A DNA stretch of 64,000 bases from Chryseobacterium carnipullorum (lineage in GTDB: Bacteria; Bacteroidota; Bacteroidia; Flavobacteriales; Weeksellaceae): the NCBI RefSeq assembly GCF_900142785.1, contig NZ_FRCD01000009.1:124001-188000 (forward strand). The letters are read 5' to 3'. The position numbers and the translations under genes were made by a program. Below are positions 48,000-64,000 of this stretch, one piece after another. The notes under the pieces are model-generated. The model saw only the letters and a program-made list of their open reading frames with translations, made no database searches and was not told where the DNA came from. Position 1 is the first letter of the stretch. The number at the start of each line of letters is the position of its first letter.

Positions 48000-48073
48000 A
48001 TTATATCTTTGTATAGTATTGATAATCAATAAAGTTATTTAAAAACTCCACATCTGTACCATTAACCGGAACT

Positions 48074-48949
48074 ATGAAAGCTTACGAAAGTATTAAAGAA
48101 ATATTATCTTTTTATCAGGTACACTGTGATGAACCTTACTATATATCTTCAGGAAAACTCATTTTTGAATTCCCAAAAAGACTGTTCCGCATGGATTTTT
48201 ATGCATTCTGCATCTGTGTTTCCGGTAGTATTGATTTAGAAATTGATAATCACCATTACAATATATCCCAAAACGGATTCCTGATATCTGCTCCGTCAAC
48301 AATTATAAAATTTGTAAATACCAGCAAAGATTTCCGCATGAAGGTTCTATTCTTTGAAAAGAATTTCCTGCTTAAGAACATTTCTAATCCATTTTTTATC
48401 GAGAATCTGTCTCTATTCAATAAAACTACCTTTAATGTAGTTATTTCCAACGAAGCAAGTAGTAAACACTTAATCAATTTGTTGGAATATCTTCAGCAGC
48501 AGACCACGAGGAATGGTCGTTTTACAGAAGATATTCTTCGTACTATTATTATTAATATTTTATTGGAAGTTGCAGTCCTAACTGATGAAGGCAGAAAAGA
48601 CAACGCATATTCCACTCCACAGGATAACAATCATATTTTTTTTAAATTCAATGAATTGGTGAAAGAAAATATTTTGCAGCATAAGGACGTACAATACTAT
48701 GCGGACAAGCTATTCATTTCCAACAAATATCTTATTCTGATTGTAAAAAAAGCGACCGGCAAAACGCCGCATCAGATTATTGATGAGGCCTTATTAAAAG
48801 AGGTTTGCGTTCTGCTCGGCTATCCAGAAAAAAATATTTCTCAGATTGCATTTGAAACAGGCTTTAATTCTACCTCTGCATTCGGCCGTTTCTTTAAAAA
48901 GCATGCGTTAATATCGCCCCAAAGGTACCGAAGACAACAGCATTTTTAA
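48074..48949 (+). CDS. AraC-family regulator of the fatty-acid module
   Basis: A 291-residue AraC-type regulator: an N-terminal cupin-like sensing domain (residues about 15-165, containing FCICVSGSIDLEIDN and GFLISAPSTIIKF) and the two HTH motifs of the C-terminal domain (KDVQYYADKLFISNKYLILI and ISQIAFETGFNSTSAFGRFF). It is the first gene of the module, 98 bases before the first oleate hydratase and in the same direction. The candidate motif GAATTWTGGTATAT in three nearby promoter regions is likely its site. The ligand is plausibly a free fatty acid, inferred from context. Confidence 0.88.
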   Translation: MKAYESIKEILSFYQVHCDEPYYISSGKLIFEFPKRLFRMDFYAFCICVSGSIDLEIDNHHYNISQNGFLISAPSTIIKFVNTSKDFRMKVLFFEKNFLLKNISNPFFIENLSLFNKTTFNVVISNEASSKHLINLLEYLQQQTTRNGRFTEDILRTIIINILLEVAVLTDEGRKDNAYSTPQDNNHIFFKFNELVKENILQHKDVQYYADKLFISNKYLILIVKKATGKTPHQIIDEALLKEVCVLLGYPEKNISQIAFETGFNSTSAFGRFFKKHALISPQRYRRQQHF

Positions 48950-48974
48950 AAAAGAAATTCCGTATATGATTTTC

Positions 48975-49006
48975 GAATTTAGGGATACTAGGGAATTATG
49001 GTATAT
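48975..49006 (+). promoter_or_regulatory. Candidate AraC site upstream of first oleate hydratase
   Basis: GAATTATGGTATAT at 48993-49006 matches motif copies at 60250-60263 (minus strand) and 54996-55011. A related string GAATTTAGGGATAC lies 18 bases upstream at 48975-48988. It is 41 bases before the oleate hydratase start. Confidence 0.55.
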
Positions 49007-49047
49007 CAATATCTTTATCATATAAAAATAACCTAAAAAAATATCAT

Positions 49048-50640
49048 ATGAGCAATTCGAACAAACATGCATATTTCATCGGAGGCGGATTGGCAAGTCT
49101 TGCCGGCGCCGTATATCTGTTAGAAGACGGAGGCTTTAAAGGCGAAAACATTCACATCATTGAAGCCCTGCCGATTTTGGGCGGTAGCAACGATGGTGCA
49201 GGAACTAAAGAAAAAGGGTTCATCTGTCGTGGCGGGCGTATGCTCAACGAAGAAACCTATGAAAACTTTTGGGAATTAACATCCCGTATCCCTTCTCTGG
49301 ATGTCCCGAACATTTCCGTAAAAGATGAAATTCTGGCATTTGACCACGCAAATCCGACAAATGCAAAAGCTCGATTGATTGACAAGAACGGAAACATTTT
49401 ACCTGTAACGGATATGGGTTTCAATACTCAGGACCGGATGAAATTTTTGAAATTGTTTTTTGCCGATGAAAATGATTTAGACAACATTACTATTCGTGAT
49501 TGGTTTGACAATCATTTTTTTACAACCAACTTTTGGTATATGTGGCAAACCACTTTTGCCTGGCAGGAATGGAGCAGTATTTTTGAATTTCAACGCTATA
49601 TGAAACGTATGCTGTTGGAATTTTCAAGAATCGAAACACTCGAGGGGGTTACCAGAACACCATACAACCAATATGAATCCGTTATCTTGCCGTTGAAGGC
49701 ATTTCTGGATCAGCATAAAGTGGACTTTTCATTAAGAAAAACCGTTACCGATTTGGATTTTGCCGATGATGATAATGGCATTACCGTAACGGAAATAGAA
49801 TGCATCAATGCAGAAGGAAACACAGAGAAAATAACCGTGAATGAAGGCGATTTGGTATTCTTTACCAACGGATGTATTACAGACAATTCTAATAATGGCG
49901 ATTATGATACGCCTGCAAAATATTTGCCCGCAAATCCACCAAGTTTTGCATTATGGCGCAAGATTGCCGATAAACAACCGGGCAAACTGGGGAATCCCGA
50001 CCCGTTCTTTACAAAACCGGACGAAACAAAATGGTATTCTTTCACACCAACATTCAAAGGAAATAGACTACTGAAACTTATTGAGGAATACACTGGTAAC
50101 AAACCAGGAAGCGGCGCCCTAATGACATTTAAGGATTCTGCGTGGAGGTTATCTATCGTCGTAGCGGCGCAGCCACATTTCAAAGCACAGGAAAAAGACA
50201 CCACCATTTTATGGGGTTATGGATTATATCCCGATGCAGTGGGAGATTATGTAAAAAAGCCAATGATAGACTGCACCGGAGAAGAGCTTCTTACCGAATT
50301 GCTCCATCATCTGCATTTTGAGCAGTATGAGCAAGAAATCAAGGAAAGCGTGGTGAACGTCATCCCGTGTATGATGCCTTACATCGATGCCTTGTTTCAA
50401 CCAAGAGCAAAAAAAGACCGCCCTGCAGTTGTTCCTGAAGGCAGCACCAACCTGGCTCTTATCAGCCAGTTTGTGGAAATACCGGAAGATATGGTATTCA
50501 CAGAAGAATATTCGGTTCGTGCAGCACGCCTTGCGGTCTATACCCTGCTCGGACTCGATAAAAAAGTAACACCAGTAACGGAACACTGGAAAAAACCAGA
50601 CGTGCTGGCAAAAGCCATTCATACCTCTTACAGAAATTAA
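49048..50640 (+). CDS. Oleate hydratase, variant active-site type
   Basis: A 530-residue FAD-dependent fatty-acid hydratase that adds water to cis-9 double bonds to give 10-hydroxy acids. FAD-binding Rossmann motif FIGGGLASLAGAVYLLEDGG and IHIIEALPILGGS are present. Where the Elizabethkingia enzyme has RGGREME (catalytic Glu), this one has RGGRMLNEETYENFWEL, the variant seen in the monomeric Rhodococcus erythropolis type, in which Met replaces that Glu. It differs in this and in length from the second hydratase at 55 kb, so the two are not a recent duplication. First structural gene of the lipid operon. Confidence 0.92.
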   Translation: MSNSNKHAYFIGGGLASLAGAVYLLEDGGFKGENIHIIEALPILGGSNDGAGTKEKGFICRGGRMLNEETYENFWELTSRIPSLDVPNISVKDEILAFDHANPTNAKARLIDKNGNILPVTDMGFNTQDRMKFLKLFFADENDLDNITIRDWFDNHFFTTNFWYMWQTTFAWQEWSSIFEFQRYMKRMLLEFSRIETLEGVTRTPYNQYESVILPLKAFLDQHKVDFSLRKTVTDLDFADDDNGITVTEIECINAEGNTEKITVNEGDLVFFTNGCITDNSNNGDYDTPAKYLPANPPSFALWRKIADKQPGKLGNPDPFFTKPDETKWYSFTPTFKGNRLLKLIEEYTGNKPGSGALMTFKDSAWRLSIVVAAQPHFKAQEKDTTILWGYGLYPDAVGDYVKKPMIDCTGEELLTELLHHLHFEQYEQEIKESVVNVIPCMMPYIDALFQPRAKKDRPAVVPEGSTNLALISQFVEIPEDMVFTEEYSVRAARLAVYTLLGLDKKVTPVTEHWKKPDVLAKAIHTSYRN

Positions 50641-50697
50641 ACAAAAAAAATTTTGTTAACGACAATATTAGATTGACAATTTAAATTAATACAAAAA

Positions 50698-51330
50698 ATG
50701 AAAAAAATCACACTGGCCATTGCACTTTGTGCAACTACTTTCGCTGTAAAGGCGCAAATAACGATTGACCCTGAAATAGGTCTGAATTTTAATAAAATAA
50801 AGACAGAGGTAGGCGATAATTCTTCCGAATCCGATGACTCCAAAACGGGGTTCCGTATCGGGGCAGGCGTTAACATCCCTTTGTCACAAGGTTTCTACGT
50901 AAAGCCCGGTTTATTTTACAGCAACAAGGGCTCAAAAACCACTACCAGCATCGGAGATTTCAAAACCAGCATGGATTACCTTGAAGTCCCTGTTAATCTC
51001 GGATATCAGTATAAAATTGAAGGAGGAAAGTCCGGAGGAATTTTTGCAGAGGTAGGGCCTTACATCGGATTTGGAGTAAGCGGTAAATATAAAGGAGAGA
51101 ATATCCCAGTAATCGGTTCTCAGGAAACCGACATCAACTTTGGTAGTGGCAGCGATGAAACTAAAGGATTCGATTGGGGATTTAATTTCGGTGCCGGATA
51201 CGAAACACCTTGGGGAATCTATCTGAAAGGACAATATGGCCTGGGATTAGGTAATCTTTCCAATATAGACAACGTAACATCTTATAACCGTGGATGGAAT
51301 CTTTCATTAGGATATCGAATCTCTCTTTAA
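50698..51330 (+). CDS. Outer-membrane beta-barrel protein (PorT-like)
   Basis: A 210-residue exported protein with a signal peptide (MKKITLAIALCATTFAVKAQ) and an 8-stranded barrel pattern: GFRIGAGVNIPLSQGFYVKPG, GGIFAEVGPYIGFGVSGK, FGAGYETPWGIYLKGQYG as landmarks and the typical C-terminal WNLSLGYRISL with aromatic residues. It belongs to the outer-membrane beta-barrel (OMP_b-brl_2) class. Within a lipid-transport operon it may pass or bind fatty acids at the outer membrane, which is inference. Confidence 0.82.
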   Translation: MKKITLAIALCATTFAVKAQITIDPEIGLNFNKIKTEVGDNSSESDDSKTGFRIGAGVNIPLSQGFYVKPGLFYSNKGSKTTTSIGDFKTSMDYLEVPVNLGYQYKIEGGKSGGIFAEVGPYIGFGVSGKYKGENIPVIGSQETDINFGSGSDETKGFDWGFNFGAGYETPWGIYLKGQYGLGLGNLSNIDNVTSYNRGWNLSLGYRISL

Positions 51331-51430
51331 TCAATAAAAGAGATTTTGTATAATAACCAATTTATCTAACTTTATTCTGCTCTTACTTTTGTCAAGGGCA
51401 GAATTTGTTTTTGTGCAAAACCAACCGACT

Positions 51431-52390
51431 ATGGCAAGGCATACATCAGGCTATATAATCAAGCAGAAAATTGGCAACTCAGGTTCGCACACGCTTTTTT
51501 ATGAATTATCCGAACCAATAAATGAATCACCAAAGGCTACGGTTCTTATTCTCCACGGGATGCAGGAGCATAGCGGTCGTTATAAGGATTTTGCGGAATA
51601 TCTGGCGAGCAATGGTTTTGCTGTTCTCGTATACGACCATCTGGGACACGGAAAAACGGCGGAAAACCAAGAAGAGCTTGGTTATTTTCAAAAAGAAAAT
51701 CCCAAACAGCAACTGATAGACGATGCTGGAACGATGGCGGCATTTTTAGAAAACCAATACCCGTACGTTTCTCACTTTTTACTGGGACATTCTATGGGGT
51801 CTTTCATTGCAAGGTGTTTACTGCAGAATCAGAAAGCTGATTTTAAAGGAGCGGTAATTGTGGGAACGGGAGGAAAAATCAATGGAATCGGTTTTGCTAA
51901 ATTTTTCCTGTGCATCAACAATCTTATTGCCCCAAAACACAGGAGCAAATTCATCAATCGAACTTTTTCCAAAATTAATAATGAACATTTTAAAGGCGAG
52001 AAGGATGGCGACCTTACCAGTTGGCTGAGCCTTAGCAAATCCAACCGTGAATCGTTCTGCAAGGACAGCCTCAACGGAATTCCTTTTACCAATAACGCTT
52101 TCTTCACACTCATCTCATTGAACAAACAGGCAACGGAAAGAAACTGGGCAGAAAAAATCTCAAAAGAATTTCCTTTTCTTTTTGTAAGCGGAGCTGATGA
52201 CCCGATAGGAGACTTCGGAAAAGGTATCGAAAAAACGGTTACGCAAATGCAAAAAGATGGATTTAAAGATGTTAAAACAAAAATCTATCTTGACATGCGG
52301 CACGAAATACTTAATGAGGATATTAAAGAATATGTATATGAAGATATAAGGGATTGGCTCAATAAAAAAATACAGCAATTGGAAAAGTAG
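51431..52390 (+). CDS. Alpha/beta hydrolase (monoacylglycerol lipase type)
   Basis: A 319-residue serine hydrolase of the monoglyceride lipase/S33 group. The start at 51431 (MARHTSGYI) is taken because the longer frame begins at a TTG. HGMQEHSGRYKDFAEYLASNG is the oxyanion-hole region; the nucleophile is Ser121 in LLGHSMGSF; acid and base lie in SGADDPIGD and DMRHEIL. It could free fatty acids from glycerides or phospholipids for the two hydratases in the same operon. The substrate is inferred from family and context. Confidence 0.85.
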   Translation: MARHTSGYIIKQKIGNSGSHTLFYELSEPINESPKATVLILHGMQEHSGRYKDFAEYLASNGFAVLVYDHLGHGKTAENQEELGYFQKENPKQQLIDDAGTMAAFLENQYPYVSHFLLGHSMGSFIARCLLQNQKADFKGAVIVGTGGKINGIGFAKFFLCINNLIAPKHRSKFINRTFSKINNEHFKGEKDGDLTSWLSLSKSNRESFCKDSLNGIPFTNNAFFTLISLNKQATERNWAEKISKEFPFLFVSGADDPIGDFGKGIEKTVTQMQKDGFKDVKTKIYLDMRHEILNEDIKEYVYEDIRDWLNKKIQQLEK

Positions 52391-52426
52391 ACTAAAAATA
52401 TTTTAATTTAAAAAAATAATTTGTTA

Positions 52427-53188
52427 ATGATTAAAATACGTAGTTTTTTACAGGAAACAGGCAATATCACACAGTTTACCAAAAATTACTTTCTATTAGG
52501 TTTCCGTCCACCATATGAAATAAAGGAACTGCTCGCACAATGCTATCTCATAGGTTACAAATCTTTGGGGCTTATTGCCATGACAGGCTTTATCATCGGC
52601 TTGGTTCTTACGATGCAGCTGCGGCCAAGCCTCGTACGCTATGGTGTGGAATCCCAGCTGCCTGTAATGGTAGGCATTGCCATCATCCGTGAAATAGCAC
52701 CCGTAATCGCCGCTCTCATCTTTGCAGGTAAAATTGCCAGTAGCATCGGGGCAGAGCTGGGCTCGATGCGGGTTACCGAACAGATAGACGCAATGGAAGT
52801 AAGCGGTACACATCCTTTTAAATACCTTGTTGCCACACGTGTCCTGGCTACAACATTTATGCTTCCCGTACTTATCATCCTGGCGGATGCCATTTCACTA
52901 TATGGTGCCTGGATAGGTGTTAACATTGGCGGTACAACTAGCCTGTCACTTTTCTATTCACAGGTTTTTGACTCCTTGGATTTCAGTGACATCATACCAG
53001 CTTTTATCAAAAGCTTTTTTTTTGGTTTTGCAGTGGGAATCGTGGGTGCCTATAAAGGCTATAATGCAGTAAAAGGAACACGGGGCGTGGGGAACGCCGC
53101 CAATTCAGCGGTCGTGCTCTCCTCTATCCTTATCTTCGTTTTGGACCTGATTGCGGTACAGATAACCGGCATTCTCGGATATAATTAA
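52427..53188 (+). CDS. mlaE: MlaE-type ABC transporter permease
   Basis: A 253-residue permease with five to six hydrophobic helices and the MlaE signature region EIAPVIAALIFAGKIASSIG followed by AELGSMRVTEQIDAME, the cytoplasmic helix contacting the ATPase. The ATG at 52427 was chosen over an upstream TTG. MlaE with MlaF and MlaD moves phospholipids or other lipids between inner membrane and periplasm. First of three adjacent transporter genes (gaps of 9 and 3 bases). Confidence 0.92.
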   Translation: MIKIRSFLQETGNITQFTKNYFLLGFRPPYEIKELLAQCYLIGYKSLGLIAMTGFIIGLVLTMQLRPSLVRYGVESQLPVMVGIAIIREIAPVIAALIFAGKIASSIGAELGSMRVTEQIDAMEVSGTHPFKYLVATRVLATTFMLPVLIILADAISLYGAWIGVNIGGTTSLSLFYSQVFDSLDFSDIIPAFIKSFFFGFAVGIVGAYKGYNAVKGTRGVGNAANSAVVLSSILIFVLDLIAVQITGILGYN

Positions 53189-53197
53189 ATCATCATT

Positions 53198-53965
53198 ATG
53201 GCGGAAACAAAAACAACAGCAAACGGCAATAATGACAATGGACCGGCCATCGTCATTGAAGATATTTATAAAAGCTTTGGTGAAAAAAAAGTGCTTAACG
53301 GTTTTAACCTAACGGTCGATAAGAACGAAAATGTTGTAGTTCTCGGAAAATCAGGCACGGGAAAATCTGTGCTTATCAAATGTATCGTCCGGCTTTTAAC
53401 ACCTGATAGCGGTAGGATAATGATTTCCGGGCAGGATATTGTCCAACTGGAAAATCAAGAGCTGGACAAGGCACGCTCAAAAATAGGTTTTCTTTTTCAG
53501 GGAAATGCCATCTATGACTCTATGACCATCCGCGAAAATCTGGAATTCCCTTTAAGAAGACGGTGGTTCCGGCTGAAGCAGGTTGAAATTGACGCACGGG
53601 TTGAAGAAGCACTCGATAGTGTGGGGCTTAAACATACCGTAGACCTTATGCCATCCGAATTGTCGGGAGGGATGCTGAAAAGAATAGCTCTGGCACGTAC
53701 TGTCATCCTCAAGCCGGAAATCATCCTTTATGATGAGCCTACCACCGGACTTGATACGGTAACGGCAAAAGAAATAGACAGCCTTATCATGGATATACAT
53801 AGAAAATACAAAACATCATCAATCATTATCTCACACGATATGAACTGTGTGAAAAATACGGCTGACAGAGTAGTCTTGCTGCTTGACGGAAAATGCTATG
53901 CACAAGGTACTTATCAGGAATTTGAAAGTTCTGATGACGAAAACATTAAACAATTTTTTGATTAA
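53198..53965 (+). CDS. mlaF: MlaF-type ABC transporter ATPase
   Basis: A 255-residue ABC ATPase with Walker A GKSGTGKSVLIK, signature ELSGGMLKRIALARTV and Walker B IILYDEPTTGLD, followed by the switch His in IIISHDMN. SGGM in place of the usual SGGQ is typical of the MlaF group. It powers the MlaE permease. Position between mlaE and mlaD genes confirms the role. Confidence 0.94.
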   Translation: MAETKTTANGNNDNGPAIVIEDIYKSFGEKKVLNGFNLTVDKNENVVVLGKSGTGKSVLIKCIVRLLTPDSGRIMISGQDIVQLENQELDKARSKIGFLFQGNAIYDSMTIRENLEFPLRRRWFRLKQVEIDARVEEALDSVGLKHTVDLMPSELSGGMLKRIALARTVILKPEIILYDEPTTGLDTVTAKEIDSLIMDIHRKYKTSSIIISHDMNCVKNTADRVVLLLDGKCYAQGTYQEFESSDDENIKQFFD

Positions 53966-53968
53966 AAT

Positions 53969-54967
53969 ATGAATAAAAATAATATCAAGCTCGGCTTATT
54001 TGTAATTTCGGGGCTTATACTTATGATGGCTGTTTTCTTTTACATTGGCAGCGGTTCGGGTATTTTTACCAGCAAATTTGAGCTCAGGGCAAAATTCAAA
54101 AACTCTAATGGGCTCAGGGAAGGAAGCAATGTGCTATTTTCAGGGATGCAGGCGGGTTCTGTAAAATCTGTAAAATTGTCCGAAAGGGATGATATAGAGG
54201 TCATTATGCTTATAGACAAAGATATTGCAAAGCATATAGACAATAGTGCCAAAGCCTCGATTGGAACAGAAGGCATTATCGGCAATGCGGTGGTCAATAT
54301 TTTACCTTACGGGAAGCCGGGCAGACCGGTGCAGGAAAAAGAATATCTCACGGCAGATACCAAATCAGGTGTGGATGAAATACTCAACACGCTATCGGCA
54401 AGCAACAACAATATACACGATATATCCAAATCTCTTAAAAACACTGTGCATAAAATTGACAGCAGCCAGATTTTAAAATTAATTAATGACAAGGCATTTG
54501 CCGAAAACTTAAAATTATCCATCCTGAAAATACGCCAAAGCACGGAAAATATAGAAAACCTGAGCAGTACTGCAGAAGCCATCATTACGTCTACACGCCA
54601 GGGAAAAGGAGCAACGGGACTTCTCCTTGCCAACAAAGATTTTGAGTCCCAGCTTAAGCAGACTTTCAATAACGTCAATGCCGCCAGCAATAATCTTAAT
54701 ACAGTAAGCAATGAACTTATCACAGTTGGTAAAAACCTGCAGACATTCAGTAAAAATATAGAAAATGGAAAAGGACCGGTAAATGCCCTTATCACTGATA
54801 CCGTTCTTACAAAAAACATCAATAACAGCCTTTACAATATCGAAAAGGGAACCGAAGGCTTCAACCAGAATATGGAGGCTCTGAAGCATAATTTTCTCTT
54901 CAGAGGTTACTTCCGCAAACAGGAAAAAAAGAAAAGGGAAACCGAAAAACAGAATCTCCAAAGATAA
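53969..54967 (+). CDS. mlaD: MlaD/MCE-family lipid transport protein
   Basis: A 332-residue protein with a single N-terminal membrane anchor (LGLFVISGLILMMAVFFYI) and one MCE domain (residues about 35-115; LRAKFKNSNGLREGSNVLFS), then a long helical region suited to form a periplasmic needle or coil, and a basic tail. MCE proteins carry lipids across the periplasm. No MlaA, MlaB or MlaC gene is next to it. With the hydratases and lipase around it, fatty acids or their hydroxylated products are plausible cargo. Confidence 0.9.
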   Translation: MNKNNIKLGLFVISGLILMMAVFFYIGSGSGIFTSKFELRAKFKNSNGLREGSNVLFSGMQAGSVKSVKLSERDDIEVIMLIDKDIAKHIDNSAKASIGTEGIIGNAVVNILPYGKPGRPVQEKEYLTADTKSGVDEILNTLSASNNNIHDISKSLKNTVHKIDSSQILKLINDKAFAENLKLSILKIRQSTENIENLSSTAEAIITSTRQGKGATGLLLANKDFESQLKQTFNNVNAASNNLNTVSNELITVGKNLQTFSKNIENGKGPVNALITDTVLTKNINNSLYNIEKGTEGFNQNMEALKHNFLFRGYFRKQEKKKRETEKQNLQR

Positions 54968-54974
54968 CATTATT

Positions 54975-55011
54975 GGAATATCAGCACATACAATTAGAAT
55001 TTTGGGATATA
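54975..55011 (+). promoter_or_regulatory. Candidate AraC site upstream of second oleate hydratase
   Basis: GAATTTTGGGATATAT at 54996-55011 resembles the motif GAATTWTGGTATAT of the other two promoter regions. A weaker copy GAATATCAGCACATAC begins exactly 21 bases upstream at 54975. Confidence 0.5.
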
Positions 55012-55094
55012 TAAAGTGAAAGCAATATGTGTAACTTTATTAAACAAAAACAAGGTTATTTTATCATATATTATAAACTAAAAAAAATCTAATT

Positions 55095-56864
55095 ATGTAT
55101 TACAGTAATGGGAATTACGAAGCATTTGCCCGCCCGAAAAAACCGGCAAATATTGAACAGAAATCTGCCGTACTTATCGGTTCTGGATTAGCTTCATTGG
55201 CCGCCGCAGCTTTTTTGATACGCGATGCGCAAATGGAAGGAAACAAAATCCGTATTCTGGAAGAATTAGCTTTACCCGGTGGCAGTATGGACGGTATCTG
55301 GAATGAGCAGAAAGGCTACATCATACGAGGCGGACGGGAAATGGAAACACATTTCGAAACCCTCTGGGATTTGTTCCGCTCGATACCCTCATTAGAAACG
55401 GAAGGCGTTTCCGTACTGGACGAATATTATTGGCTCAATAAAGAAGACCCTAGCTTTTCCCACGCCCGTGTTATCGAAAACCGTGGAGAAAGACTGCCCA
55501 CGGATGGCAAGCTTACACTTTCCCAGAAAGCCATCCACGAACTTATAGCGCTGGTTCTTCTTCCTGAAGAAAAACTACAGGATGTACAGATAGACCAGGT
55601 ATTTACAGAAGAATTTTTCCAATCCAACTTTTGGACCTACTGGGCTACGATGTTCGCATTCGAACCCTGGGCAAGTGCGATGGAAATGCGCCGATATGTT
55701 CTTCGTTTCATCCATCACGTTGGCAGCATAGCAGATATGTCCTCACTACGCTTCACGAAATACAACCAATATGAATCACTGATTCGTCCGTTGGTAAGCT
55801 ACCTTGAGTCCCACGGTGTTACCTTCCAGTATGATAGCCAGGTTCAGAACATACTTGTAGAAAATGAAAACGGCAAAAAAGTAGCGAAGAAAATCGAATA
55901 TATTAAGAATGGCAATGCAGAAAGCATCAGCCTGACCGAAAACGACCTGGTGTTTGTTACCAACGGCTCCATTACCGAAAGCAGTACATACGGTGACAAT
56001 CATAACCCTGCTCCTGTTGCTGACGGCATTGGCGGAAGTTGGCAACTTTGGCAGAATCTGGCAGACCAGGATGATGCCTTTGGAAAACCCGAAAAGTTCT
56101 ACAAAAACATTCCCGAAGCCAACTGGGTAATCTCCGGAAGCATTACCTTCTTCGACGAAAAAGTGATTCCGTATATAGAAAAAATAACAAAAAAAGACCC
56201 AAGAAGCGGTTCTATAGTGACTAGCGGACCTGTCACAATAAACGATTCTAACTGGTGGTATGGCTTTTCCATCAGCAGACAGCCCCACTTCAAGGCTCAG
56301 AAAAAAAATGAAGTAATTGTTTGGGTTTATGGGTTGTATTCTCATAAACCAGGAAATTATATCCAAAAGAAAATTACGGAAGCCACGGGGATAGAGCTTT
56401 GCAAAGAATTTTTATACCATATTGGTGTTTCTGAAAATGAAATTGCAGAAATTGCACAAGCTGCCAACAGCATCCCTTGCCGTATGCCTTATATCACATC
56501 TTACTTTATGCCTCGTGCATTGGGAGACCGCCCATTGGTGGTTCCGGAGGGTTCTGTGAACCTTGCTTTTATCGGTAATTTTGCCGAAACTGGAAAAGAC
56601 ACCGTATTCACGACCGAATATTCCGTGCGTACAGCAATGGAGGCAGTTTACACCCTTTTGGATGTAGACAGAGGTGTCCCGGAAGTTTTTGCTTCTTCAT
56701 ATGACATCAGGGTACTGCTGAAATCCATCTATCACCTTAATGACAATAAAAACCTAAATGAAATTGAATTTCCTTGGTTGATTTCAATCCTTGAAAAATA
56801 TGGTGTCAAGAAAATAGAAGGTACTTATGTTGAAGAGATTTTAAAAGAAGCCAAGTTGTTATAA
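55095..56864 (+). CDS. ohyA: Oleate hydratase, classical type
   Basis: A 589-residue FAD-dependent fatty-acid hydratase with Rossmann motif [34 protein letters not shown], and the classical catalytic stretch [19 protein letters not shown] containing the Glu equivalent to E122 of the Elizabethkingia meningoseptica enzyme. C-terminal extension relative to the first copy is present. It converts oleate and related unsaturated acids to 10-hydroxy acids, which detoxifies them. It is followed by a strong terminator and has its own promoter-type motif. Confidence 0.95.
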
Positions 56865-56901
56865 AAGATTTTTTTAATTTAATTATTTATACAATTATAA
56901 A

Positions 56902-56936
56902 AAGAGGCTGTTACAAAGCAACAGCCTCTTTTTATT
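56902..56936 (+). terminator. Strong intrinsic terminator after second oleate hydratase
   Basis: AAGAGGCTGTT (56902-56912) and AACAGCCTCTT (56920-56930) form a perfect 11-bp stem followed by TTTATTTT; the A-run before it could also serve leftward transcripts. Confidence 0.9.
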
Positions 56937-57089
56937 TTGAAAATGAATCTACATATACTTTTCTAATTCCCCTCTGTTGAAATCCATTTCTCATCTTTAA
57001 AATAAAAGGGAAATTTCCTAGAAATAGCAGTATCACATAAATTTCCAGGATATTAGCATTTGATTTTCGATTTTCTTATTTATAATATT

Positions 57090-58226
57090 TTACAATTTAT
57101 AAAACTCCGGATTGAATGCTTCCTCCAAGTTCTTTGGTTCTTGACGTTTTTTGTGGTTCAGCTCGTGTCTTGAGGTTGAAGATGTTACATACGCTGACTG
57201 TCGTGAACGCTGTAAATTTCCAATCGGTGAATTCTCTTCGATGGTTCTAAACGGTGTAAAAGACAGATTTTCCATAATTTCAAAATTACCATCCTCAGGA
57301 ACCGATTGTTTTGGTATTGTGATTTTTGCCACCGTACGGAATGGTGATAATTCCTGCGACCATTTTTTTGTAAGGTCATTCACAGGCATTTCTTTCAGGT
57401 CTTTGCAAAGTTGTATTTGCAACTCAAATGTAAGTTCTTTTTGAGCTATTTCTTTGATAATTCCTTTTCTGTACGGCCATTCTGCGCTGTCTAGATCAAT
57501 ATCTTTTTCCGTGATGGCGTTCTTGGTCTGCTCAGTTGGGATCACTCTTACTTTGGCGATATAATCACCGTGGCGTACCGCTCCCATACTGTAAAATTCG
57601 TAAAGAAAACTGTTGATGGAAGGGATTTTTTCAAAAGTTTTAAGAGCGCCCAATTCCTTCAAAGCCTCAAAATTTGGAAATGCTTTTTTATTTTCGGTGA
57701 CCCAAAGTGTGGCAAATTCCAATTTTCCCAAGGCTCCCTTTTCAAAGAAATCATTTAGCTTTAAAAAAAGCTTTGAAATGAAAACATAATGTTCTGCCGA
57801 GTTACAGAAAAACACGGGATTATTAATCAGGTTAAAATCAACATTGGGAGAATCTTCCTCTCCGGGAGATAATTTTTTGCCATCTATCCCAAAAATCTTT
57901 AAAGCAAATCCTTGTGCATTACCGCTTAGTTTATCGGGCAAAACTCTGGACGAACCATTGGAAAAGCGAACTGCTGCCTGGTGTGTTCCGGGTTTCGCAT
58001 AAATGCCCTGCGCCAGTTCTTTGGGCAGATTATCCAAAATTTCAACCTCTGCTTTCAGCACTGCATAGCCATTGGCGTGCGCATCTCTTGTATGATGGGT
58101 CGCCCTGCTTAGGTTTGGCGTATTTTTGATGTATTCGCGGATATCGTTATTAATGGTGGTAATATACTCATCGAAATTTTCTGGAATTTCTTCCACTTCG
58201 TAACTGTACTTGATGTATTCTTCCAT
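57090..58226 (-). CDS. Catalase-like heme protein
   Basis: A 378-residue protein of the catalase-related superfamily. The distal histidine region is seen in SRATHHTRDAHANGYAVLKA, followed by AAVRFSNGSS and DSPNVDFNLINNPVFFCNS, which are in the usual catalase order although more divergent and shorter than true catalases. Catalase-related proteins include enzymes that act on lipid hydroperoxides (for example allene oxide synthase-like). Last gene of an operon with a DyP peroxidase; lipid peroxide handling is the inferred role. Confidence 0.8.
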   Translation of the reverse strand: MEEYIKYSYEVEEIPENFDEYITTINNDIREYIKNTPNLSRATHHTRDAHANGYAVLKAEVEILDNLPKELAQGIYAKPGTHQAAVRFSNGSSRVLPDKLSGNAQGFALKIFGIDGKKLSPGEEDSPNVDFNLINNPVFFCNSAEHYVFISKLFLKLNDFFEKGALGKLEFATLWVTENKKAFPNFEALKELGALKTFEKIPSINSFLYEFYSMGAVRHGDYIAKVRVIPTEQTKNAITEKDIDLDSAEWPYRKGIIKEIAQKELTFELQIQLCKDLKEMPVNDLTKKWSQELSPFRTVAKITIPKQSVPEDGNFEIMENLSFTPFRTIEENSPIGNLQRSRQSAYVTSSTSRHELNHKKRQEPKNLEEAFNPEFYKL

Positions 58227-58237
58227 AGTGCTTTTTT

Positions 58238-59596
58238 TTATTTTAATTCGCTAATCCATTTTAAAGCAGAAATGCTTGGGATAAAACAATATTCGCCGCC
58301 TTTCACGATGTTGTAGGTCTGCAAACCACGGTATCTTTTGATGAGGGGTTCTCCCGGTGCAGAAAACAGTGCGTCTTCGTCCTGTACACCGATCATAGGA
58401 TCTTTTTCTGTTCCCAGATTTTGGGCGTTACCATCGTTTGCCCATTGTTTTTGAAGAAATTCCAGTGTTCCCATTGCATCAGCACTAATGCCAATAAAGT
58501 ACTGTCCACGTTCCTTACCGTCATTTTTGGTTACCTCCGGCGGAACAATGTCGCCAAAAGTTACACTTTTTCTGATAATCCTGTGCAAACGTTCATCCTC
58601 CAAAACAAAAGATTTGGAATCTCTTGGGTTCATCCTGCGGATATGCGAACTGAACGGACACTTTTTACCGTACTCATCATTCTTGAAAGAAAAATCATTG
58701 TTTTTTTGCATATCATCTCCTAGCGATTTATCATCCTTTTCGGGAGCTAAAACCAAAGGTGCACCACTTCGCCAGCGACCTACCATTTTAGCAGCCAAGA
58801 GCTCTCCCTCTTCCGGCGAAGAAGAATTTTCTTTAACGAACTGATTAAATTCCGCCACTTGGCTCTGGTACTTTCTGAAAACCATAAAAGAACCGTTCTT
58901 CCCTAAAACTTCAGGCTGTGGAAACGGCTTTATGGTGCCGGCTTCTCCAGGATAGCCCAGTATAAATTCGCCTGCTTTAAGCGGGCGGTCAAATCCAGCC
59001 GGAACTTCTATCCCACTGCCTTCAATTTCCGGGTTGCTAATACCGTCTCTGAATCCGAACACATTTTTAACCTCTTCAGATACGCTGAAATTGTGACTCA
59101 AGATTACTTCTATGCCTCTATTATCAGCCAATTTAGACCGAAATTCCTCCAGCTTGCTTTTCCACGCCTCTTCATTGTTGGCGATAATCGCCGCAGCGAT
59201 GTGAATATGCGACCTTTTAAAAACCCTTTCCCAGTTTTTGGGGTCATTGACACCAATGTCATATAGAAAACGGGAGCGGTCTGCCATTCCTTCCTTGAAG
59301 GATTCGGGGAAAGTCTCAAGCGACTCTTTAGGCACGCCGATTTTTTCCAGACCTTTATAAGTGAACGTCAACGTAACCGATGCCCCTTCATTCTTATGCC
59401 AGTCTTCCGCAGAACTCACAATCGGCAAGAGTTTTTGGAGCATTTGTCTGGCTGCCACAGCATCTTTGATTTCAATGATTGCCACCGTTCCGAAATACGG
59501 AATAGGGCGGCTTCTGAGAATTAAGGCCTGTATTTCGTTCAGCTCAATTTCTACTTTATTGGGATTGAATATCCGCTTTAAAAATTCCAATGCCAT
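58238..59596 (-). CDS. DyP-type heme peroxidase
   Basis: A 452-residue dye-decolourising peroxidase. The GFRDG motif (VFGFRDGISNPEIEGSG) with catalytic Asp, the distal Arg in MVGRWRSGAPLV and the proximal heme His in CPFSSHIRRMNPR identify it. The long form corresponds to the larger DyP classes. No signal peptide is present, so it is cytoplasmic unless exported with a partner. It is 2 bases after the upstream gene and 11 bases before the catalase-like gene. Confidence 0.92.
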   Translation of the reverse strand: MALEFLKRIFNPNKVEIELNEIQALILRSRPIPYFGTVAIIEIKDAVAARQMLQKLLPIVSSAEDWHKNEGASVTLTFTYKGLEKIGVPKESLETFPESFKEGMADRSRFLYDIGVNDPKNWERVFKRSHIHIAAAIIANNEEAWKSKLEEFRSKLADNRGIEVILSHNFSVSEEVKNVFGFRDGISNPEIEGSGIEVPAGFDRPLKAGEFILGYPGEAGTIKPFPQPEVLGKNGSFMVFRKYQSQVAEFNQFVKENSSSPEEGELLAAKMVGRWRSGAPLVLAPEKDDKSLGDDMQKNNDFSFKNDEYGKKCPFSSHIRRMNPRDSKSFVLEDERLHRIIRKSVTFGDIVPPEVTKNDGKERGQYFIGISADAMGTLEFLQKQWANDGNAQNLGTEKDPMIGVQDEDALFSAPGEPLIKRYRGLQTYNIVKGGEYCFIPSISALKWISELK

Positions 59597-59598
59597 AC

Positions 59599-60150
59599 TT
59601 AGATTTTATTTGCTTCGTCAATCGCCCTATTAAGTCCGGTAATGATTTTATCATTTCTCCTCACATCATTTACAGTAAGATGCGGAACACCAACATACCA
59701 GCCGGTCGCGGTAATCTGATGGTCTAGAATGAACTGTTTTACACTCGGGTCTTTTATGCCCGGCCAGCCTTCCACATTACCGAAAATGATGTCCATCAGC
59801 TGCGGAATTTTTGTGGCGAAATCATCAATATAAGCATCCCAGTCGCCATCATAAGCCGTGCAGAAAAGAATCTTGGTATCGTTATCAAATAAAACGATAC
59901 GCAGGTCGTGCAGTGTTCCTACTTTGGTTGCCCCTTTCAGGTTTCCGCCTGCAATTTCCATTATGGTCCTGAGGTTTTCTGCACCTCCCGGTTTAAGGTC
60001 TGCCATCGCCGTTAACTCAGATACACGCCCAGAGCGTAACCCTTTTTTGCCGGCAGATGTAGTGGAATGGTCGTAACCATCATCAATACCTTCACTGAAA
60101 TTCGCCTTTGCCAATTCGGCAGTCAATTTGATTTTGTCTATGAAACCCAT
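59599..60150 (-). CDS. Conserved protein heading the peroxidase operon
   Basis: A 183-residue soluble protein with no secure family. Landmarks are LRIVLFDNDTKILFCTAYDGDWDAYIDDF and a WYVGVPHLTVNDVRRND end, together a ferredoxin-like alpha/beta pattern that resembles half of a DyP or chlorite-dismutase fold (cited here as LFDNDTKILFCTAYDG and DWDAYIDDF). It is the first gene of an operon with DyP and catalase-like genes, and may be a heme or lipid-binding partner. This is inferred from context. Confidence 0.65.
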   Translation of the reverse strand: MGFIDKIKLTAELAKANFSEGIDDGYDHSTTSAGKKGLRSGRVSELTAMADLKPGGAENLRTIMEIAGGNLKGATKVGTLHDLRIVLFDNDTKILFCTAYDGDWDAYIDDFATKIPQLMDIIFGNVEGWPGIKDPSVKQFILDHQITATGWYVGVPHLTVNDVRRNDKIITGLNRAIDEANKI

Positions 60151-60220
60151 AATTCAGATTTTTGATTAATTATTCACATTGTTTTTTGAGATAAAAACAA
60201 TAATTTTCAAGAGTGTACTA

Positions 60221-60284
60221 CAAATGTAAAGCCACAGGCAGCCTTAAAAATATACCAAAATTCGTATATTATGTACTAAAACTC
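60221..60284 (-). promoter_or_regulatory. Promoter and candidate AraC sites of the peroxidase operon
   Basis: On the minus strand, GAATTTTGGTATAT (60250-60263) matches the oleate hydratase motif in 13 of 14 bases. A second copy GAGTTTTAGTACAT (60271-60284) is placed exactly 21 bases upstream, and a -7 type box TACATTTG (60221-60228) lies downstream. The proximal copy is also within an inverted repeat AATATAC/GTATATT (60249-60270). Confidence 0.55.
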
Positions 60285-60398
60285 CCTAATCCCACCTATT
60301 TGCTTTAAAAGCTTCAATTGATAAAAGGAAATATCTTATCTTTAATCTTGTTGTAATTTTGAGAGAATAAAACCTATTTAACTATAAAAAATCAATCT

Positions 60399-61793
60399 TT
60401 ATAATTGAGATTTCTCAATATTATTTATACTGTTGATTATTTCTTCAATATCAGAGTTATTTACACTAAAAATTGTATCAAATATGTGTTTTACTGAACT
60501 TAAACCTTTAGTTAAATTAGCAGTTAATTCAAGCTCTTTAAAACTTGTTATCAATGAGTTAATTTTATAAGTTAATTCTTTTTCTGTAAATACTATGTTA
60601 TTTTCTAAAGAATGAGAATCAAAATTTCTTTTGATTATTCTTAAGTTTATAATTGAAGGTGAAAATAAAAATTTGCTTAAAGAACGTATAAGTCCAAAAG
60701 AGGAAGTATTCATATTTTTATGAGGTAAAGACCCAAGACCAACCACGTGATACTTTTGACGAAGTGACTTACTTATGAAATAAGCATCTCTCCAACTCGT
60801 TGTTAATATAGCAATATCGGATAATTCAGCTTTACCATCACTTATAAGCTTGGCTATGGTATTAGCTATGTAATCATTATTATTGTCATTTTTGGTTTCA
60901 CAAATTACTATATCAAAATTAAAGTCTTTGTACTTTGAATCATTCTGTAATTCAATATGATCTTTAAAAAGAATTGAGTATCCTTTAACTATATTTGTAG
61001 TAGAACGATATGTTGTATCTAAATTTTCTATTTCTGCTTGAAAATCATATGATGCTCTACTGAATGCATTATCAATAGCTCCAGCAAAGGCATATATTTT
61101 TTGTTTTTCATCTCCAACCATAAAAAATGTACAATCTTCAGATTCATTTCGAATAGCCTTTAAAATTTCGTATTGAAATATATTTGTATCCTGAAACTCA
61201 TCAATCGATATTTCGTAAAATTTATTTGCTATAGATTGTGCAACAAAATCATTTTCAGAAACAATCTTATGTGATTTGAATAAAATTTCATTGAAATCTA
61301 TTGCCTTTTTATCTCTTAAGAAATTGAAATATAATTCAGAAATATATATCCACGATTCAATGTTATCAGTATTTGAACAATCTAAATCACCATTTAAAAG
61401 TCTTTTTATTTTACTTAGTTCATCAAGTGGATTATCTCCTAACTCAATATCGGAGTTTATTTCTATAAATTCTTTCAGCTCATCATATGAAATTATTCTT
61501 GGCTTATGCCATTTGTAAATCCAAGAAAAGGGTCTTAATATAAATTCAAGGCAAAATCTATGAATTGTACCAATAAATATATCTTTATCATCGGTATTTA
61601 ATCTACTAGCAATTTCATCTGCGGCAGCATTTGTATAAGTTATAAGAGCTAAAGACTTATGTTTAGGAATAGACTCAAGTTTTTTTTGTGCTCTAGCAAT
61701 TAGAGTTTTTGTTTTACCTGTTCCTGGAGAGGCGCTTACTATTGTATTTCCAGAGATTTCAAATGCTGCTTTCTTCTGCCTACTATTTAGCAT
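60399..61793 (-). CDS. UvrD-type helicase, GajB-like (Gabija)
   Basis: A 464-residue superfamily 1 helicase: Walker A SASPGTGKTKTLIARAQ, motif Ia ITYTNAAADEIASRL, Walker B EISIDEFQDTN, motif III MVGDEKQKIYAFAGA, and DTTYRSTTNIV (motif IV). It is shorter than UvrD or Rep and similar in size to GajB of the Gabija antiphage system. The 3' end of an OLD-type nuclease reading frame overlaps its start, as in gajA-gajB. Since that partner is truncated, the system is probably inactive as it stands. Confidence 0.8.
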   Translation of the reverse strand: MLNSRQKKAAFEISGNTIVSASPGTGKTKTLIARAQKKLESIPKHKSLALITYTNAAADEIASRLNTDDKDIFIGTIHRFCLEFILRPFSWIYKWHKPRIISYDELKEFIEINSDIELGDNPLDELSKIKRLLNGDLDCSNTDNIESWIYISELYFNFLRDKKAIDFNEILFKSHKIVSENDFVAQSIANKFYEISIDEFQDTNIFQYEILKAIRNESEDCTFFMVGDEKQKIYAFAGAIDNAFSRASYDFQAEIENLDTTYRSTTNIVKGYSILFKDHIELQNDSKYKDFNFDIVICETKNDNNNDYIANTIAKLISDGKAELSDIAILTTSWRDAYFISKSLRQKYHVVGLGSLPHKNMNTSSFGLIRSLSKFLFSPSIINLRIIKRNFDSHSLENNIVFTEKELTYKINSLITSFKELELTANLTKGLSSVKHIFDTIFSVNNSDIEEIINSINNIEKSQL

Positions 61794-62104
61794 TTATAGA
61801 AATTTTTTTACAATTTGCAATGTGTGTAATAGCATTTTTAATATAGCCTGGCACAATGAATTCCCCATAAATTAGCGCCCCTCCCTCAATTAAAATACTT
61901 AGTTCTTGAGCAAACCTTCCCTTTTTTATAGTATTGTCAATTCTTTTAATTAACTCAGACTCCCAAAGTTCAGGATTTTCCCTTGTTTTTTCAATTAAAT
62001 TATCATAAGATTTTGAATGTCCTAAGTTTTTAAAGCATTCTTTTAAATATTCTGTATTGATATCAGATGAAGGAAATAAATCAATTTCTAATGTTTTTTT
62101 TAAC
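61783..62104 (-). pseudogene. C-terminal remnant of an OLD-family nuclease (GajA-like)
   Basis: A frame without a start codon runs from the junction near 62104 to TAG at 61783 and encodes about 105 residues: KKTLEIDLFPSSDIN at the beginning and KKGRFAQELSILIEGG then VPGYIKNAITHI near the end, which are the closing elements of OLD-type TOPRIM nucleases such as GajA. It overlaps the helicase start by 11 bases, an arrangement that fits a gajAB pair. The N-terminal ATPase and most of the TOPRIM domain are missing. The junction abuts a LigD fragment. Confidence 0.75.
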
Positions 62105-62342
62105 CATACGGATGATCTTCTACCATCATCGCAAGTCTTTTGATATTCGGATCCAGTGAAGGCCCTTTCGGTACCGCCCAGCTTTTCAGGACGCCATCCA
62201 TTTCCAGACGAAAATCATAATGCAAATGTGAAGCATCGTGTTTCTGAACGACAAATCTCAATTCTTTTCCTGACGGAACACCGCCGAAGGGTTCAGGTGT
62301 TTTGTCTTCTGATCTTTTTTTATGATATTTTGATAAGCTCAT
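62100..62342 (-). pseudogene. N-terminal remnant of LigD phosphoesterase domain
   Basis: An 80-residue frame covering the start of the 3'-phosphoesterase domain of Lig[41 protein letters not shown] and MVEDHPYG, with the catalytic His and Asp region intact. A full domain would continue after VEDHP with the DYxxFEGxIPEG segment, absent here; the frame ends at TAA at the junction with the GajA-like remnant. LigD repairs DNA ends with Ku; no ku gene is visible. Confidence 0.8.
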
Positions 62343-62437
62343 ATTAATTTCTTTAACAAAAAAAATCTCCCTGACAATGCCAGAAAGATCAGATCATTAA
62401 AAAGCTTTCTGCTGTTTGCTGTTTGCTTTTTAAATTA

Positions 62438-62626
62438 TTATTTATGCTTATCTTTTAAATAAGCTTCAAGTGTCTTGCGGTCATTAGACCCCGTTGCCCG
62501 GATTGCTCCGGTTACTGCCTGTGAGCTTACGCCCAGTTTATCTTTGAAATATTGAATTTCATAATTTTCAGAACCACTGACCTGGCTGCGGTCACGCTGG
62601 TCTTTTTTTGATTTATTGTCTGCCAT
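62438..62626 (-). CDS. DUF3606 protein
   Basis: A 62-residue protein with a basic N-terminus (MADNKSKKDQRDRSQVSGS) and the compact DUF3606 helical domain (YEIQYFKDKLGVSSQAVTGA). Short cytoplasmic proteins of this family accompany LigD and stress genes on many mobile elements; function not established. It lies 95 bases upstream of the LigD remnant on the same strand, so they were probably once one stress module. Confidence 0.8.
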   Translation of the reverse strand: MADNKSKKDQRDRSQVSGSENYEIQYFKDKLGVSSQAVTGAIRATGSNDRKTLEAYLKDKHK

Positions 62627-62887
62627 AATGTGATTTTGATGAAAAGAAACAAATAAAATGCCAGTGTAATGACATCAATAGCCACAAAGCGAAGATTACA
62701 TGTTGATTGTAGAATAAAAGTTTCAAAAGAAGAACCAATATTCATTTACAGAGCCTTATCCACAGGAATACGAAATTGGCTGCCTAGAAATAAGTTTTTG
62801 TACAAAAGTCACATCACATAATTCCATATTCTCAGTGATTTTCAAATAATTAATAAAAATAAGAATCCTTCAGTCAACCCAAATAAC
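62627..62887. other. Non-coding spacer between DUF3606 and integrase fragment
   Basis: About 260 bases without a supported gene. No obvious attachment site repeat could be recognised by eye. Confidence 0.4.
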
Positions 62888-63336
62888 CTAACAACTTATT
62901 GCAATTTTCTTTTTATCAATAAATTTCTGTTTCAATTCCATCATATCCTCACTGACTTTTTCATCAAGTATTTTGGCATAATGCTGTGTTGTCTTAATAC
63001 TCTTATGACCTAGCATTTTACTCACACTTTCAATTGAAACCCCGTTAGATAAAGTGATCGTTGTTGCAAAAGTATGGCGTGCAATATGATAGGTCAATTC
63101 TTTGTTAATTCCGCACAGGTCAGCAATCTCTTTAAGATATGCATTCATTTTTTGATTACTAAGAATAGGCAGCAACTTTCCAGTATTAAGACATACAGGG
63201 TGATTTCTATACTTTTCAATAATTTTCTCTGTTTGAGAAAGCAAGGGAATATTAGAAGTATTTTTAGTTTTCTGACGTTTGGTATAGATCCATTGAGAAC
63301 CATCAAGTCCTAAATTGATATTTTGGTATGTTAACC
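62888..63336 (-). pseudogene. int: Tyrosine integrase, C-terminal catalytic fragment, cut by IS982
   Basis: About 149 codons of a Bacteroidota-type tyrosine recombinase. The C-terminal catalytic residues are visible in ELTYHIARHTFATTITL (His-x-x-Arg) and MLGHKSIKTTQHYAKI (His and nucleophile Tyr). The N-terminal arm- and core-binding domains and the first catalytic Arg are missing: the frame meets the IS982 end at 63336, and the apparent start MHYG is encoded by the IS terminus. It is the likely former integrase of the ICE or of a nested element. Confidence 0.85.
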
Positions 63337-64000
63337 CGTAGTGCATTATAAAAAAGGTTACTCATAATACGAAAATTTTGTATATTGTATTGACTATCAA
63401 TCTAATACGTTATGAATAACCTAGATGCAATTTACGATTTTATTTTAAAGGAATTAAGAAAATTAACCATCAAAGAAAATTTTTATTTCAAACCAATTAA
63501 ACCAAAATTATCTGATTTAGAGCTCATTGCAATAAATATTTCTGCGGAATATTTATCGATAGATTCAGAATATCAGTTGTTTAGATACCTCTCTAATTCA
63601 AAACTAAAGGGAATGATTGAGAGAAGTGTGTTTAATCGCAGAAAAAGAAAGCTTTTCTTACACTTGGAAAATATTAGAAAACTTATGGTTGCTAAATTTA
63701 ATGAGATGGAAACCACTTTTATTGTAGATTCGATGCCTTTAGAAATCTGTAAAAACGCAAGAGCGAACCGCTCTAAAATTTGTAAGGAAAATGAATTTTC
63801 GTTTCCCAGCAAAGGTTATTGCGCTTCTCAATCGAGTTATTATTATGGTTACAAATTACATGCTGTTTGTTCTGTTTCCGGAGTTTTCCAAAGTTTTGAT
63901 ATTTCTACAGCAAGCATTCATGATATTCATTTTTTGCAAGATATCAAGCATCAAATGAACAATTGTACGTTGATTGGAGACAGGGGTTATTTATCCACCC
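63336..64000 (+). mobile_element. IS982-family insertion sequence, right end outside window
   Basis: The left end begins around 63336 with ACCCGTAGTGCATTATAAAA, an ACCC-starting terminus of the type used by IS982 elements. A transposase gene starts 77 bases inside and reads off the window edge. The integrase frame is interrupted exactly at this point. The second terminus and any target duplication are not visible. Confidence 0.8.
63413..64000 (+). CDS. IS982-family transposase, partial
   Basis: An open frame of 196 codons reaching the right edge without a stop. Landmarks are the N-terminal MNNLDAIYDFILKELRKLTI, LSDLELIAINISAEYLSIDSE, the first catalytic Asp in TTFIVDSMPLEICKNAR, and the second Asp in CTLIGDRGYLS, in the spacing of the IS982 DDE family. 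Full proteins are near 290 residues, so the C-terminus with the catalytic Glu is outside. Confidence 0.92.

Follow-up and report, generated by a model that had tools for sequence, protein, structure and literature searches.

Joined fragments of ligD and Gabija genes beside a Chryseobacterium integrase are very likely inherited remnants of illegitimate joining

Introduction

How did the beginning of a repair gene come to be fused to the end of a defence gene? The window analysed here, a stretch of 64,000 nucleotides from Chryseobacterium carnipullorum, carries on its minus strand a frame (62100..62342) made of residues 1-79 of a ~900-aa LigD, one changed residue and a stop. It abuts a start-less frame (61783..62103) that holds approximately the last 95-100 residues of a ~585-aa GajA, with its stop at 61783-61785. 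The two meet in an A8/T8 run at 62094..62101, hereafter joint 1. The original prediction, made from the letters of this stretch, took the junction for a deletion within an integrative and conjugative element (ICE). Our comparison with relatives leads to a different emphasis: the locus is very likely a patch of nonfunctional gene remnants among the cargo of a mobile element with an integrase, produced by illegitimate joining in an ancestor and spread afterwards. Illegitimate-recombination joints and pseudogene debris are known from the cargo regions of integrative elements.

Results

On the LigD side, open reading frame analysis delimits a frame of 80 codons followed by TAA (62102-62100), of which 62342-62106 of the minus strand is LigD-derived. 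Residues 33-79 correspond to positions 1-47 of the 107 in Pfam LigD_N (E 1.6e-21), leaving the phosphoesterase domain incomplete, and the ligase and primase-polymerase domains are absent, a full-length LigD query matching the window over residues 1-79 only. We fetched 13 LigD loci, the best matches outside the joint copies (149 of 173 genomes of the genus gave some LigD match), and 12 of them are 86-94% identical to the head across its 79 residues. In ten the frame continues across the joint for a total of 894-902 aa; the other three frames measure 628, 582 and 73 aa. DNA identity to the window stops at 62095-62105 in all 13, and in all 13 a DUF3606 gene adjoins the LigD match. Such a gene, which usually accompanies LigD of this subfamily, lies at 62438..62626 (minus strand; Pfam DUF3606, E 8.4e-10) in the window. 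The likeness to LigD of bacterial NHEJ thus consists of a PE-first start and an upstream DUF3606 gene, whereas the full PE, ligase and primase-polymerase domains of an intact relative (L059) are lacking. The genome also carries a separate 850-aa LigD (at C35). A plasmid search returned 145 records, and the 20 listed ones all match the LigD head only. An independent decayed DUF3606-LigD head, followed directly by a piece of integrase, was seen in another genome (G018, L071:9292-10254).

The GajA tail was assigned no family in the Pfam search, and its frame holds no open reading frame of at least 40 aa starting from ATG, GTG or TTG. It matches the C-terminal end of the PADLOC GajA model (positions 506-593 of 596, E 1.3e-11) and aligns to residues 489-580 of an intact GajA (L069) at 61% identity. 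In that intact protein Pfam places AAA_15 at 1-341 and OLD-like_TOPRIM at 391-458, both upstream of the retained tail, and the window copy accordingly lacks the ATPase and TOPRIM domains together with approximately the first 487 residues. In three relatives (G038, G160 and G179), 58-64% identical, the frame is open over 586, 586 and 594 aa, and the DNA identity to the window stops at 62099-62101 in all three. Further matches are distant (31-40% in G034, G116 and G174), and 395 sampled genomes of the phylum added, besides the genome itself, two distant tails at 23-26% identity. The tail had no match among plasmids, and a phage search likewise gave none. At ~61850-61890 the tail has 7-8 extra residues, reading EGGALIYG where intact relatives have DKD.

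These comparisons bear out the core of the original prediction, namely that a LigD head meets a start-less GajA tail at an 8-base A run, both homologies ending inside the run, and that each protein is normal up to the joint and absent beyond it, relatives being intact in 10 of 13 cases for LigD and 3 of 3 for GajA. The comparison it proposed, with relatives carrying a complete ligD or gajA, yielded complete frames for each, separately.

The prediction had missed that the next gene is also cut. A 3'-truncated gajB (60399..61793, minus strand) follows in the usual order, the GajA stop at 61783-61785 overlapping the gajB start at 61793. Its product matches PADLOC GajB (E 1.4e-63) and, in Pfam, only the N-terminal UvrD-helicase domain; it is 464 aa long against 556 and 557 aa in two relatives (L069 and L070), and its last residues come from neighbouring island DNA. 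The C-terminal domain is lost: UvrD_C lies at residues 470-542 of the 557-aa relative, past the end of the window protein. In its matches to the PADLOC GajA and GajB models, its gene order and its overlapping genes, the piece resembles a Gabija locus (an OLD-family nuclease, GajA, with a UvrD-like GajB), but GajA is missing up to approximately residue 487 and GajB over its final ~100 residues. The claim that a defence locus and a repair gene were merged therefore stands as far as ligD and gajA are concerned, but describes only one end of the Gabija piece.

At its other end, gajB DNA meets intergenic DNA of a peroxidase island at 60422..60423 (joint 2). When window positions 59500-60560 were searched as DNA against 320 genomes of the family, 39 gave some match, many of them very short. 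In six (G224, G221, G150, G053, G044 and G075) a match of 91-100% ends at query base 923, equivalent to window base 60422. Since these six (loci L119-L124) agree with one another past this position, at 99.4-100% for 169 bp or more and in five cases over 1411 bp, the window carries Gabija DNA where they carry other DNA. Isocitrate lyase follows beyond 60422 in five of the six; in L124, Pfam identifies genes for isocitrate lyase and malate synthase there. At most a few bases are shared at joint 2. Between the two joints lies a Gabija piece of 1.68 kb (~60423-62101) comprising the end of gajA and most of gajB.

The adjoining island genes (57090..60150, minus strand) encode, according to Pfam, a 183-aa protein, a DyP-type peroxidase and a catalase-family protein, and are 93-97% identical in DNA to the same genes of other genomes. 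As a whole, the island (48068-60422) encodes an MCRA-family protein (oleate hydratase type) besides the DyP peroxidase and the catalase-family protein, occurs in several genera of the family and adjoins isocitrate lyase in some genomes. Its left edge is clean: island matches begin at 48068-48072 in L120, L121, L124, L125 and the G068 and G016 elements, and the counterpart of 47584-48067 in L119 is at a separate place. The edge at 48068 may be the border of a mobile module.

Joint 1 occurs five times, in four genomes belonging to two genera, at 99-100% DNA identity: in the window genome (G000), twice in G068, once in G016 and once in G235, which belongs to another genus of the family. A further genome, G220, has joint 2 and lacks joint 1 in the DNA seen. 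Approximately 60 bases on each side of joint 1 are identical in all five copies, which rules out an assembly error of a single genome; an assembly artefact was rejected as the origin of the joint, five places in four genomes carrying it. Over the whole region the joint copies are 99.6-99.96% identical.

What surrounds these copies differs. G068 and G016 have in common a stretch of ~53 kb at 95-99% that contains the joint region, and in both an integrase, intact or nearly so, marks the end of the region next to tRNA-Asp genes. Within the ~100 kb compared, the window has only 48068-63333 in common with them, at 98.4%, plus 5.7 kb at 77% in G016. Because at least two different surroundings carry joint 1, the joint is older than the separation of these surroundings, and the event that formed it is neither recent nor local to the element of the window. 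The claim that the merger took place within this ICE was thus not borne out. At the integrase end, G016 has four tandem tRNA-Asp genes (L057:11146-11540) and G068 one.

In the window, the C-terminal part of a tyrosine integrase occupies 62888..63346 on the minus strand (Pfam Phage_integrase, E 1.7e-14); the gene is intact in L055 (412 aa). The DNA match of the integrase region to L055, L057 and L078 stops at 63333, where a transposase-bearing insertion starts and interrupts the gene, with a DDE_Tnp_1 transposase frame from 63412. In G068 (L056) the same insertion as window 63334-64000 and the same following chromosome were observed, and gajB there breaks off at 60731, next to two transposon-like open reading frames. 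Relaxase and coupling-protein genes identified by Pfam at 7.4-11.6 kb of the window indicate that it likely contains a conjugative element, to which the 48-63 kb part would also belong.

Whether the pieces still function was judged from their domains, essential residues and variation. In reported experiments GajA loses its activity upon E379A, D511A or K541A mutation, and resistance to T7 requires the whole gajAB cassette (PMC8136825). D432 and D434 are likewise listed among the essential GajA residues (PMC10781630). With its ATPase, TOPRIM core and start gone, the GajA tail would be inactive, as would the truncated GajB, which has lost its C-terminal helicase domain. The LigD phosphoesterase is described as depending on His84 and Tyr88 (PMC8656161). 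The window frame ends in HPYG-stop where relatives have HPYDY, so that, judged by the HPxDY spacing without alignment to the P. aeruginosa protein, the stop appears to sit at the expected position of Tyr88. With this site, half of the phosphoesterase domain, the ligase and the polymerase gone, the LigD head is probably inactive as well.

Variation among the copies points in the same direction. Three of six copies have an interrupted gajB, in G235 at 61603-61605, in G220 at 61591 and in the second G068 copy at 60731; in the other three it is still an open frame of 464 codons. Foreign DNA at two contig ends suggests that an insertion element broke the G235 copy. Across gajB and the tail of GajA, all ten substituted sites among the copies change the protein, one of them (in G235) to a stop. 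Two of the sites, accompanied by small indels, lie at L118's ragged end, are likely an alignment edge and were excluded from the smaller counts; a third lies beyond joint 2. Without these three, all seven sites are nonsynonymous. With synonymous changes expected at a share of 0.23-0.24, such a pattern has a chance of ~0.12 over 8 sites and ~0.16 over 7, which is not significant. The LigD head has zero substitutions across the five copies. Judging purifying selection, or its absence, from the substitutions alone was rejected as too weak.

We considered whether the short frames might be real genes, for a LigD-like peptide of 80 aa or for a short GajB that serves a new role. The LigD head is unchanged and gajB is open in half of the copies, as such genes would be, and the original prediction had named conservation of the same 80-residue frame in a relative as a sign of real short genes. 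The frame is indeed unchanged in the four other copies, but their 99.6-99.96% identity reflects recent shared descent and is too high to reveal constraint, so its conservation does not support a real short gene. As gajB is interrupted in the other half, domains are halved and essential residues are gone, we regard real genes as very improbable. Missing domains and residues, the broken gajB copies and the all-nonsynonymous substitutions, although too few for significance, lead us to read the pieces as inert remnants, very probably old inherited debris.

A translated LigD-GajA fusion was also weighed. Runs of eight A can slip, which might in principle join the two frames. However, these frames differ, and the LigD stop comes before the free part of the run: since TAA takes the first two A, a gain or loss of A downstream of the TT leaves the stop in place. 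Fusion by slippage was rejected on this ground, and we give it next to no credence.

Discussion

Both joints, intact relatives of either side and the shared descent of the copies are documented by the comparisons above; how the parts were joined, and in what order, is a matter of interpretation. The A-rich character of joint 1 offers one clue. Distant relatives of the two parents are A-rich at this place, reading TATAAAAATTTT in one LigD and GAAAATACATT in one GajA. The plus strand of 60301-62500 contains two T8 runs and one A8 run, and a run of this type is therefore not rare in the region. The original prediction favoured a deletion driven by slippage or microhomology. A short-homology joint fits, but a deletion as such goes beyond the evidence: because the Gabija piece is bounded by another joint on its far side (60422/60423), capture or several steps fit equally.

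In its simplest form, one ancestral deletion ran from inside ligD to inside gajA through short A-run homology, and a separate, unrelated step removed the end of gajB. The two genes have the same orientation, as a simple deletion requires, and both parents are A-rich at the joint; yet the genes were never seen adjacent. Related integrases (78-97% identical) had LigD, GajA or GajB at none of 31 loci, examined on the cargo side (in two of which this side measures less than 2.3 kb), and the fetched loci of the two intact gajAB gave no LigD match. The version that the original prediction had suggested looking for, with intact ligD, intact gajAB and the intervening DNA, was accordingly found neither at the 31 integrase loci nor at the two intact gajAB loci. 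We hold a single deletion to be a serious candidate, at somewhat less than even chances. The cargo beside related integrases differs between elements, which fits a hotspot.

The missing halves speak to another possibility. In five genomes searched for the missing parts, the GajA one (residues 1-487) had no match above 43% identity and the LigD one none above 57%; the other halves are therefore not kept elsewhere in these genomes. Insertion into ligD leaving its other half elsewhere was rejected on the same result for LigD.

Fragment capture would account for both ends at once: a broken piece of gajAB served as filler between the broken ends of ligD and of the peroxidase island in one end-joining event. 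Non-Gabija DNA lies on both sides of the piece, both of its own ends are missing and its flanks are unrelated to each other. Nevertheless, two successive deletions would look identical, and no locus with the ligD head directly abutting the island was seen; we consider capture unlikely, though worth keeping in view. Bolder still, and somewhat less likely, is the full scenario in which one end-joining event sealed a loose 1.68-kb Gabija fragment between a broken ligD and a broken metabolic island, the scar then spreading between genera. If true, the gene of an end-joining ligase would itself have been destroyed by end joining, and the scar would be a marker across genera.

We therefore return to illegitimate joining in an ancestor as the preferred account. 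An internal 1.68-kb Gabija piece would have been joined on the right to the first 79 codons of ligD and on the left to intergenic DNA of the peroxidase island, both joints probably arising through illegitimate, homology-poor end joining, joint 1 within a parental A-rich stretch and joint 2 at a few common bases at most. Two or more deletions, or a deletion plus the capture of a fragment, in the ancestor's cargo hotspot adjoining the integrase are the most likely steps, and the joined product would then have passed with its surroundings into several strains. The patch resembles the illegitimate-recombination and pseudogene debris of integrative-element cargo in that unrelated broken genes are joined beside an integrase without long homology. 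Nothing sets it notably apart from such debris; here relatives of the DNA on each side document the two joints.

For annotation, the 80-aa frame may be miscounted as LigD by annotation pipelines, and the 464-aa GajB as a partial Gabija by defence-system finders. The joints are handy markers: across four genomes from two genera, joint 1 tags a single lineage of cargo DNA. Beyond annotation the patch matters little: it is an ordinary kind of inherited debris.
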